From NCBI RefSeq assembly GCF_008326425.1, contig NZ_AP018929.1, positions 448,875 to 512,874 of the forward strand: a stretch of 64,000 nucleotides of DNA, written 5' to 3'. Shown here piece after piece: positions 7,470-10,721 of this stretch. A model generated the notes under the pieces. That model did no database searches. It was not told the origin of the DNA and saw only the letters and a list, made by a program, of their open reading frames with translations. Every line of letters starts with the position of its first letter. Positions within the stretch are counted from its first letter, which is position 1. Source of the stretch: Sulfuracidifex tepidarius. GTDB taxonomy: Archaea; Thermoproteota; Thermoprotei_A; Sulfolobales; Sulfolobaceae. The translations under genes and the position numbers were made by a program.

Positions 7470-8258
7470 ATGGTGCTTGATTTGGGTATGATCAAGGAGC
7501 AGGCGAAGGAGGAGTACTACAGAGCGTTGGAGGAAGCTGTCAACTAAGTCATGCAGTCATTGACTGAGGTGAGGAAGGACGTGGCTAGGAGGCTCGTGCT
7601 GGGAGCTGTCGCGGGAGGGAACTCAACGGAGATAGCCCAGGAGGTGGGGATGGACTACGAGACCGTTCTGAATGGGTTGGACAAGGCATCTGGGGTTAGC
7701 CTGATTGAGGTAGTGAAGAGATTGGTGGAAAACCATCCCGTCCTCCTGATCGTGGACGACACTCACAACCACAAGCTCTACCCTGATCATGCCCGTCTCG
7801 AGGAACGGTACACAGGTGTTCTACTGCAGGGCTCACAAGAGGTTCGAACTAGCGATTCAACTCCTCGTGGTAGGGATGAGGGACCTTACCAACGGCGAGC
7901 TGTACTTGTGGACGTCACTCCTTACGTTACCAGAAAGGTGGAGGAGGAGTTACGGAGGAGGGGTGAGGAGGTGGAGTTCAAGACGAAGATCGACGCGTTC
8001 CTTGAGTTGTTACCCTCCCTAGCTGACTTCAACGTGAAGGCTACTGTCTTCGACTCGTGGTACGTGAACTCTAGGACTCTCCTTGCGAACACGGTGGGGG
8101 AGCTCAAGTCCAACGCGCGAATCACCGAGTGCGATAGGCTTGTACCCGTTGGCGAGTTCCCCCAGGGGGAGTACCTAGTGGAGTACTTGGGAACCCCCAT
8201 CAAATTACTTGTGATAGACGACTATGTAACTATAACCAACTTCTTATCCTATAAATAA
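7470..8258 (+). pseudogene. IS4-like DDE transposase, decayed
   Basis: The first ATG is at 7470 (MVLDLGMIKEQAKEEYY), but codon 26 is TAA (7545-7547), after which the same frame continues MQSLTEVRKDVARR. The first catalytic Asp region is LIVDDTHNHK and the second is VFDSWYVNS with LKSNARI after it, the layout of IS4-type DDE transposases. Between them, about 7795-7908 must be read one frame over (RNGTQVFYCRAHKRFELA, then LLVVGMRDLTNGELYLW), so two compensating frameshifts are present. The frame stops at 8258 before the glutamate region. One nonsense codon, two frameshifts and a missing C-terminus make it inactive. Terminal inverted repeats were not found by eye, so the family name is tentative. 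Confidence 0.75.
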
Positions 8259-8452: not shown

Positions 8453-8684
8453 TGTTTACCCGTGGCGTAACTTCTCTTTGATTTTTAATACTTTCAATTT
8501 ACGCATGGATTTACATGCATCCGTGAAAGGTTCGAGTCATCCCGCTAAAGGAGCAGAGGGATAACGGTAGTTACACTGGTGAAGCTCAAGGGCTAAGGAT
8601 TGATATGAAATATTATGAAATCCTATGAAGCCCAAACCCGTGACTGAATTAAAAATAAGGAAAAAGTTACGCCACGGATAAACA
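8453..8684. mobile_element. 232-bp MITE-like element with 39-bp terminal inverted repeats
   Basis: The left end (8453-8491) begins tgtttacccgtggcgtaact and the right end (8646-8684) is nearly its reverse complement. The outer 21 bases match at all but one position and TTTTTAAT matches again further in. The 150-base interior has no open frame of note. No clear target-site duplication was seen. The architecture fits a non-autonomous element moved by a DDE transposase; the parent is not in the window. Confidence 0.7.
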
Positions 8685-8852
8685 ATGCATATGGAAGCAT
8701 TGTAGGCCTCTTAATGAGTTACTTAATAGGTTCTGTTGCCTCAGAAGAAGAGAAGATAATAGGTGAAGGACCTTGTGATAAAAAATAGACTATTTTAATA
8801 GAAATAATGAAGTTTGATTAACTTAATTAGATATATACTTTACTAGTCTAAT

Positions 8853-8870
8853 TGTGTAATAAGTTACACA
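8853..8870 (+). promoter_or_regulatory. palindromic operator overlapping an HTH gene start
   Basis: TGTGTAA-taag-TTACACA is a perfect dyad of seven-base arms ending on the A of the start codon at 8870. A TATA-like agatatatact lies at about 8829-8839. The position over the transcription and translation start suits autorepression by the HTH protein it precedes. Confidence 0.5.
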
Positions 8871-9127
8871 TGGCGGAAAAACAAAAGTTGGCAAAAGTCC
8901 TCTCAACCTCTTTAAGTGACTCAGAGGTGCTTAACCTCTTAGGACAGCTTAAGGAGAGCGATAGTGAGTTAGAAAGAGAATGCGGAATAAGCAGGAAAAA
9001 ATATAATTGGAAGAAAGGAAAAGTAAGAGAAACCAGCAGAGAAACTAAAGAAAAGCTAATCTCTTTCGTGCTAAATAAATATATAGTACGTATTTGTGCA
9101 TCAAATCCTCTACCTACTAGGTCTTGA
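8870..9127 (+). pseudogene. N-terminal part of an HTH-domain protein, truncated
   Basis: From ATG 8870 the product reads MAEKQKLAKVLSTSLSDS, then LARECG-like LERECGISRKKYNWKKGKVR, a helix-turn-helix followed by a basic wing-like stretch and KEKLISFVLNKY. From about 9080 (IVRICASNPLPTRS) the sequence becomes the antisense of the HEPN-like gene on the other strand, so the protein ends in foreign sequence after roughly 70 real residues. A TTG 18 bases upstream would also open the frame, but the ATG follows the operator directly. Probable role before truncation: a DNA-binding regulator, perhaps autoregulated through the dyad at 8853-8870. Confidence 0.5.
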
Positions 9128-9342
9128 ATGAATTGTACGTGAGGAAAACTATCATTTCTCTTACCTTTACCCTTTATTCCTTTACAAATATTTTTTATAG
9201 ACCAGTAGTTAAATAAAGAAAAGTATACAGCACTAATCATTCTCCTTATAAATACTTCATCTAATAAATTATCATTCAAAATATTCTCAAAGTAACTTAT
9301 CAATTTATGAGGTTTTAAATCGCCTGTATTGCTTGGTCGCAT
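9080..9342 (-). pseudogene. HEPN-like helical protein, C-terminally truncated
   Basis: Starting at ATG 9342, the product reads MRPSNTGDLKPHKLISYFEN, then ISAVYFSLFNYWSIKNI, then GKRNDSFPHVQFIQDLVGRGF. The helical layout with a Tyr-x-x-x-Phe-Asn-Tyr core resembles HEPN-type proteins. Coding similarity stops near 9080 (IRTIYLF), where the frame enters the antisense of the HTH remnant; it stays open to 8848 only as low-complexity sequence. The C-terminal end, where HEPN RNases keep the R-x4-6-H motif, is lost. The start overlaps the upstream gene (9315-9776) by 28 bases, so it was the third gene of an operon. The HEPN assignment is an inference from helix pattern. Confidence 0.45.
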
Positions 9343-9776
9343 ACTATTATCACTTTACTAGCAATGTCATGTATACCTTCTCTATTTAGAGTATCCTTAG
9401 TAGACCTTGCTATTTCCTTCCATTCATCCCATCCGCAATTATCTAAATGAATTTCTACGAAAAGTGGCTGTGAGGACTCTATATCTTCTGCTAAATCAAT
9501 AGAGGATATCCTGATCCAATTAAAAGTATTAAGTAGCCAAAGGACAAGCGACGCCAAGTTCTTAATATCTATGAACTTCTTAATTTCATTTATACAATCG
9601 TCTGTCGCATAACGTTTTAACAATTCAAGAGCGTCTTTCTCGCTAATGCCAATAAGTATAATAGTATAAATGTTATTGGAAATAGTAATATTAGTTTGCA
9701 GTTCAGTGGAGGAAATACCGAACTGCATACTTTCTTGATGAGAACAAGTAATGTAGTTAGGTGTCAAGTTTTTCAC
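9315..9776 (-). CDS. hypothetical protein, middle gene of three-gene operon
   Basis: A 153-residue soluble protein that I do not recognise. It has an N-terminal beta-rich part (TNITISNNIYTIILIGI), a helical centre and a C-terminal alpha/beta part with FVEIHLDNCGWDEWKEIA and a final KVIIVCDQAIQAI. It overlaps the upstream gene by 20 bases and the downstream HEPN-like gene by 28 bases, so the three are almost certainly co-transcribed and translationally coupled. It is AT-rich compared with the metabolic genes nearby, as is the rest of the operon. No signal peptide or membrane helix is seen. Confidence 0.65.
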   Translation of the reverse strand: MKNLTPNYITCSHQESMQFGISSTELQTNITISNNIYTIILIGISEKDALELLKRYATDDCINEIKKFIDIKNLASLVLWLLNTFNWIRISSIDLAEDIESSQPLFVEIHLDNCGWDEWKEIARSTKDTLNREGIHDIASKVIIVCDQAIQAI

Positions 9777-10215
9777 CCATTTTACTCCAGCTTATTTTAG
9801 GGACCCATCTTACTGCATACAGTGGACCTTGTGGAGTCTTAAATTGAATATTTTTAGATATCATCAAGGGCTCTACTTCAGCCCTGATTAAATATTCTCC
9901 AATTTTTCCATCCTTATAAACTGCTTCTTCATAAGATGAAGATTTCTCGACTATCTCCAAACTAGTCCACCCTTCATTGATCTGCTTGCCAGGTTCTAGA
10001 ATGGGCTTATCCTTGACCTCATTTAGAGCGCTTTCAGAAGGGTGAGAAGAAATTCCAACGATAAAATTAACATTAAATTCGACTCCAAAAGAAGATTGCA
10101 AAGGTATAGCGTTTATAATTGCAACACGTAAAAAGATTAGACTGCCGTCACTAACTTTTACATATCCCCTAGTTGAGTTCTTAAAACTCAAATTTTCTTG
10201 CACTCCAATCATCAT
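9757..10215 (-). CDS. hypothetical beta-rich protein, first gene of three-gene operon
   Basis: A 152-residue soluble protein, mostly short beta strands, with a well-ordered look: FNVNFIVGISSHPSESAL, KPILEPGKQINEGW, GEYLIRAEVEPLMISKN and TPQGPLYAVRWVPK. I do not recognise the family. It leads an overlapping operon with the gene at 9315-9776 and the truncated HEPN-like gene at 9080-9342. A beta protein, an alpha/beta protein and a HEPN-like protein in tight overlap next to an HTH gene is the kind of layout seen in toxin-antitoxin or defence cassettes, but no motif proves that. ATG 10212 is an alternative start one codon in. Confidence 0.65.
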   Translation of the reverse strand: MMIGVQENLSFKNSTRGYVKVSDGSLIFLRVAIINAIPLQSSFGVEFNVNFIVGISSHPSESALNEVKDKPILEPGKQINEGWTSLEIVEKSSSYEEAVYKDGKIGEYLIRAEVEPLMISKNIQFKTPQGPLYAVRWVPKISWSKMGEKLDT

Positions 10216-10721
10216 AATCAGTCATGAGTATCTAATACAATTATATATTAAAAAATCATCATTAATAAAGGAGTATTTAACTCGCACTCAAAAATTATAA
10301 ATCTGCACGTTTTAAGATAGGCTTCCCTAGTTAGTGTTTTCAGAAAATTTATAGCTTTAGACCAAGGATATACAACTAAATCGTATTCTAAGAACTTTTC
10401 CAAAACATTAATCTATTCATTCTTACACTTAACTGAAACTGGAGATGTCATTAATGATAAAGACGAATAGCACAAATACTGCTTCGCTAAACTGATATTT
10501 CAACTAGTGGTATGCGTAGACTCTTATACTTTTTCTTTGAGTTTCTTCTTGAGAGAATTGCAATGAATATTAGGAATGAAAAAACCTATCTGCAGGGCAT
10601 AACAACTTGCTATCTTAATCACTGGTTAACTCCGTATCGTTCCTCTCCGTTTCACTCTCTCTAATGAGTAAGAGTTTCGTGAACTTTTTTCATTTATTGC
10701 ACGTTACTAACTAGGCACTCC
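10216..10721. other. intergenic region without recognisable features
   Basis: About 500 bases upstream of the operon at 9080-10215 and of the surface-protein gene. No coding frame or clear repeat was seen. Confidence 0.5.

Follow-up and report, generated by a model that had tools for sequence, protein, structure and literature searches.

A putative three-component RNase toxin-antitoxin cassette of thermophilic archaea, with its presumed toxin gene cut by a deletion in Sulfuracidifex tepidarius

Sampling of toxin-antitoxin (TA) and defence systems in archaea is poor, and annotation often depends on recognizing the toxin or the antitoxin of a gene pair. A stretch of 64,000 nucleotides of the Sulfuracidifex tepidarius genome (the window, hereafter) contains a compact operon of three small genes, here called A, B, and C, which raises the question of what these genes encode, whether they form a unit, and what has become of that unit in this host. 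The first-pass annotation, made from the DNA letters, had described three overlapping minus-strand genes in an AT-rich operon next to mobile debris, and had proposed a TA or defence cassette damaged exactly in its presumed effector. The layout was borne out in each respect: the ORFs are present, with overlaps of 20 bases (A/B) and 28 bases (B/C) in the ORF list; the GC content of positions 9001–10500 is 33%, compared with about 45–52% outside; and an ISC1217-type transposase remnant and a MITE-like element lie nearby (Table 1).

Table 1. Coordinates of the features in the window and at related loci (L) or genomes (G)
Feature	Position	Strand	Remarks
Gene A	9757-10215	minus	152 aa, intact ORF, all-beta prediction
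Gene B	9315-9776	minus	153 aa, intact ORF, small alpha/beta protein
Gene C ORF	8848-9342	minus	164 aa; C-homologous part 9076-9342
Gene C remnant	9076-9342	minus	N-terminal ~80-89 codons of a predicted HEPN protein, presumed toxin, inactivated
Deletion junction	9075-9091		truncated C and truncated HTH gene, tail-to-tail
HTH gene, 5' part	8852-9079	plus	C-terminal part lost; homologue of 171 aa in L176
ISC1217-type transposase gene	7551-8258		Pfam DDE_Tnp_2 (E=1e-78); remnant, apparently truncated
MITE-like element	8453-8684		232 bp; 44-nt inverted ends, 80% complementary; end motif TTTACCCGTGGCGTAAC
Other members of HTH family	L176 3911-4876; L177 3320-3727		motif SGISRKxIYNW, shared with the window copy
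A-B-C cassettes	G072 (two copies), G225, G023, G036, G100, G107, G093, G078, G039, G102, G018, Njordarchaeota MAG
Intact C homologues	L077 8890-9315; L150 5538-5963; L056 9845-10285
Alternative first component	L070 10488-11003; L071 2193-2531	minus (both)	~115 aa, directly upstream of B-C
Type iv cassettes (A plus partners)	L063 8534-9544; L066 9657-10649; L075 335-1367; L151 6885-7935; L152 4859-5897
Type v partners of A	L164 934-1218; L165 499-783; L166 5987-6298; L076 9399-9674
Single MITE end motif	L053 10614; L054 1176		Metallosphaera yellowstonensis cassettes
Aspartyl protease genes	L053 11532-11909; L060 5476-5919; L065 2411-2788; L067 11669-11968; L071 3051-3470		picked by eye

All three genes have homologues in other genomes (E-values down to 1e-70 for A, 1e-49 for B, and 1e-39 for C), and their dN/dS ratios, estimated with distant pairs with saturated synonymous changes left out, were 0.16–0.17 for A, 0.23–0.30 for B, and 0.17–0.21 for C, which indicates purifying selection on each of them. 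Given these homologues and the low dN/dS, A, B, and C are not chance ORFs. Of the 147 genomes of the host order searched, 18 carried A, 16 carried B, and 14 carried C. Nor are they scattered singly: the expectation that they recur as a set held, with A, B, and C lying together, in the same order and on the same strand, in about a dozen genomes that span several families of the order and in one Njordarchaeota MAG. The named relatives include Metallosphaera yellowstonensis, a Pyrolobus sp., and Desulfurococcales MAGs. Most gene pairs overlap or stand a few bases apart. The cassette is intact in at least five genomes (G072, G225, G023, G036, and G100), the others being damaged or cut by a contig end, as is C in G107. 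Within the host family, 5 of the 31 genomes, that of the window included, carry gene A or a fragment of it; the A of G102 is a fragment of 32 residues.

The identity of C was approached through its intact relatives. An R-x4-6-H motif had been suggested as the mark to look for in an intact third protein, and R-x4-H was indeed invariant (R90-x4-H95 in L077 numbering, within YRvavDHYtLNPT) in all seven intact C proteins aligned, which also have in common the helix motif RRxxSAxYFxLFNYW. For the intact C of M. yellowstonensis (L077), AlphaFold2 gave a helical model, with five helices, and the best five PDB matches found with Foldseek were all HEPN domains (probabilities 0.66–0.95): sacsin HEPN at 0.72–0.95, HEPN-MNT 8xeh at 0.92, and YutE at 0.66. 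None of these matches was significant by E-value (0.17–0.83), and the model had a pLDDT of 71, with the R-x4-H region partly below 50. The motif, the helix pattern, and the rank and consistency of the fold matches together show C to be, by prediction, a HEPN-like protein. Neither C nor its homologues matched a HEPN, PaREP1 or any other model in Pfam, and profile comparison found no similarity between C and the PaREP1 partners of A described below; hence C appears to be a divergent HEPN family, outside the HEPN sequence families described so far, although such a sequence match is not what defines the superfamily fold.

In the window, C is broken. DNA homology to the intact relatives ends at position 9075 by blastn, or at about 9091 by alignment, and the remainder of the C ORF past this junction is antisense to an HTH gene on the opposite strand. 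Conversely, the first ~70 residues of the plus-strand HTH ORF (8852–9127) are homologous to the HTH protein of L176, after which this ORF reads the antisense of C up to 9127. A whole-genome search with full-length C and HTH queries found neither lost tail elsewhere in the genome. The absence of both tails argues for a deletion that fused a pair of converging genes, and it rules out a reciprocal inversion as the cause of the fusion. The break lies a few residues ahead of the R-x4-H arginine, and the catalytic motif is thus missing from the truncated protein. In short, the window copy has had the catalytic half of C deleted while A and B were kept open. The earlier claims that C is cut near 9080 in a tail-to-tail fusion that cost both genes their C-termini, and that the damage falls precisely in the presumed effector, were therefore accurate.

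As a separate observation on the HTH family, L176 carries an intact HTH copy followed by a 144-aa beta-rich protein, and the window retains the HTH 5' part only. A resemblance by eye between this beta protein and A found no support in profile comparison, and no relative was found in 59 genomes searched.

Damage to C recurs in other genomes. C is frameshifted with A and B open in G093, as in the window, and it is broken with B open in G055. In G078, both A (through a TAA stop) and C are damaged, which fits either order of loss. A TA cassette would be expected to lose its toxin first, and the cases that would show this are few.

The unexpected component is A. It was found in 27 of 398 genomes of the phylum, and neither Pfam, NCBIfam, PHROGs nor PADLOC gave a match to it. 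Its AlphaFold2 model (~150 aa, pLDDT 90.9) is almost all-beta, and a comparison of this fold with the PDB and with the viral models of BFVD returned beta-barrel noise alone (TM about 0.2). No relatives of A were found in viral contigs, nor of A or C in plasmid records, and profiles of A, B, and C compared with PDB sequences gave nothing relevant. A is thus an undescribed all-beta protein family, new here and spread over Thermoproteota.

Directly downstream of A, overlapping it or a few bases apart, stand different partners in different genomes. They comprise (i) B plus the HEPN-like C; (ii) a single protein that includes a HEPN domain of the PaREP1 type (Pfam E=5e-15 and 2e-13); (iii) a short gene together with a PIN gene (Pfam E=2.5e-5, with a second, weaker match at 2.5e-3); (iv) two genes, of ~110 and 73 aa, neither of them matched in Pfam, conserved as a cassette in two families (f8 and f2); (v) one ~95-aa gene whose product starts with HFxxRxxxRxI, as in DUF4258; and (vi) a ~290-aa protein of no recognized kind. 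Types iv, v, and vi are not recognized RNases. The type v partner may be a divergent DUF4258/BECR-type nuclease, a lead provided by the HxxxRxxxR start, which alone aligns with DUF4258. The three-gene composition read from the window stands, but that reading overlooked A as a module common to other toxin types.

On the tree of A, each partner type is mostly one lineage, but within the PaREP1 group PIN partners have separate origins. The A proteins of L065 (PIN partner) and L067 (PaREP1 partner) are sisters, 73% identical, with support of 95/81. The tree thus shows RNase partners that have been exchanged behind the same A: within one A lineage, PIN took the place of PaREP1, or PaREP1 that of PIN, on at least two occasions. 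The other end of the cassette varies too. In G034 and G080, the position of A ahead of B-C is taken by a different, helical gene, whose product is 79% identical between the two genomes; A is therefore not obligatory for B-C.

Gene B combines a conserved C-terminal part with a fast-evolving, low-charge N-terminal leader rich in S/T/N. The feature extends beyond B. In partner types i–iv and vi, in which the leader was measured, the first gene after A opens with ~50 low-charge residues rich in S/T/N/Q/P/G/Y/V whose sequence is not conserved; the excess was +0.19 against 0.00 in 76 control ORFs, for residues chosen after inspection and among rows that are related. The leader may be a contact point for A. 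B showed no similarity to the N-terminal region of PaREP1 partners or to the type vi partner. PADLOC gave one weak CARF match for B (E=0.0024 over 44 residues); Pfam lent it no support among 12 homologues of B, and it is too weak to build on.

How do these cassettes compare with known systems? HEPN-MNT (HepT-MntA; PMC7641770, PMC11586414, PMC3710099) is like C in its small HEPN protein with R-x4-6-H and in its operon, where the HEPN gene overlaps its partner, and HEPN-MNT and HepT structures are among those that the predicted fold of C finds. HEPN-MNT differs in having two genes, one for an MNT nucleotidyltransferase, whereas A-B-C has three, and no Pfam nucleotidyltransferase model matched A or B at E≤1; A-B-C does not appear to belong to this group. 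PaREP1/PaREP8 (Pfam PF05942) is a crenarchaeal HEPN family whose PaREP1 domain is the type ii partner of A. C has no PaREP1 match and keeps the arginine of R-x4-H, which PaREP1 has lost according to PMC3710099. Where they treat the gene neighbours of PaREP1, PMC2701414 and PMC3710099 name RHH, MNT or REase genes and mention no A-like partner.

The TAC systems with SecB-like chaperones (PMC5105189, PMC6377645) likewise have three genes, a beta-rich common component of ~150 aa, and varied toxin families. The variable, unconserved leader recalls their chaperone-addiction segments on the antitoxin (PMC5105189) and might confer a similar dependence. However, the variable leader of the archaeal cassettes is N-terminal on the gene after A, in contrast to the C-terminal extension in TAC, and A is predicted to be nearly all-beta, without the long helices of SecB. 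No Pfam match to SecB was found in A at E≤1, and SecB was absent from the best 50 PDB matches of the A model; A-B-C is not a SecB-like TAC.

The traits that A-B-C shares with type II-like TA systems are a small overlapping operon, a patchy distribution, and partner exchange, and we infer a toxin-antitoxin nature. On balance, A-B-C is probably a translationally coupled, three-component RNase TA or abortive-defence cassette of thermophilic archaea, with interchangeable toxins. In such a cassette, C would be the toxin, an RNase that works as a HEPN dimer. B, which evolves fastest and lies next to C, would be the toxin-specific neutralizer or adaptor. A would be a general control subunit, either a chaperone-like stabilizer or a sensor, that acts on B, perhaps through its low-charge N-terminal leader. 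Loss of A or B function would then free the toxin. In the window, A and B would then be left as an orphan remnant beside an inactive toxin. The window thereby offers a natural experiment, with two genes of the cassette still open after the death of the presumed toxin.

More tentatively, and at odds that we put below even, A might found a new class of multi-component RNase TA systems, specific to archaea, in which an all-beta chaperone or sensor binds the disordered leader of the next protein and thereby controls unrelated toxins. Part of the same reading, and equally tentative, are the propositions that these toxins would comprise a new HEPN family, PaREP1 HEPN, PIN, and possibly a DUF4258-like nuclease, and that the class would be a non-homologous counterpart of SecB-TAC and Panacea. 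A provides a search handle for RNase cassettes, among them those of PaREP1 with its hitherto unclear partners, and makes it testable whether toxins of unrelated folds come under its control.

Panacea itself suggests another assignment of roles. This promiscuous bacterial antitoxin domain is paired with many unrelated toxins and has been proposed to be a sensor or a direct neutralizer (PMC10440598), and A resembles it as one conserved domain with many unrelated toxins. A could accordingly be the antitoxin, a promiscuous neutralizing domain, with B an accessory protein or toxin-specific linker; we regard this as unlikely. A is the sole component common to all partner types, and type v, with A and a single gene, would be a classic two-gene pair. 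Yet B-C is also present where A is missing and an unrelated helical gene stands instead, and A evolves slowly (dN/dS 0.16), unlike the fast-evolving B, which would be expected to track the toxin. A differs from Panacea in being an unrelated all-beta family, so far seen only in archaea, and in being usually separated from the toxin by a third gene or facing a partner with an extra domain of its own.

The neighbours of the cassettes bear on their function. Proximity to defence genes had been anticipated, and it found modest support. Among 148 neighbours of 15 A or B-C loci, counted as family matches among the best 25 families, we found PIN 8 times, PaREP1 5, HEPN 4, Polbeta 3, AF2212 2, and MazE 2, compared with PIN 4 and TumE 2 among 117 in control regions that were not matched to the loci one to one. 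TA families were thus commoner near A or B-C loci than in control regions, in keeping with the TA reading; an association with CRISPR or R-M genes was not consistent among the cassette neighbours. If A were a ligand or damage sensor, the cassette would serve antiviral abortive infection, with an RNase switched on by infection, rather than act as an addiction TA. The exchange of HEPN and PIN behind one module does resemble sensor-effector systems, and the patchy distribution, the decay, and the one weak CARF match of B (E=0.0024) would fit such a role. Nevertheless, that match covers 44 residues and is unsupported by any other B or A homologue, the fold of A matches no known sensor, and consistent CRISPR or R-M neighbours are lacking; we consider this reading improbable. 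A housekeeping RNA-processing or regulatory complex containing a HEPN nuclease, which purifying selection on all three genes and one locus (L059) adjoining RNA polymerase genes might recall, is very improbable given the small minority of genomes that carry A (18 of 147 in the order, 27 of 398 in the phylum), the repeated decay, and the exchanged effectors.

Finally, two features of the surroundings may be recorded in their own right. A single copy of the MITE end motif lies ~120 bp upstream of A in both M. yellowstonensis cassettes, and sequence related to the MITE-like element is present near the G225 cassette (L150). In addition, genes for small aspartyl proteases of the retropepsin-like kind lie repeatedly within a few kb of A/B loci; Pfam Asp_protease_2 was matched by three of the scanned neighbours and is not among the top families in control regions.
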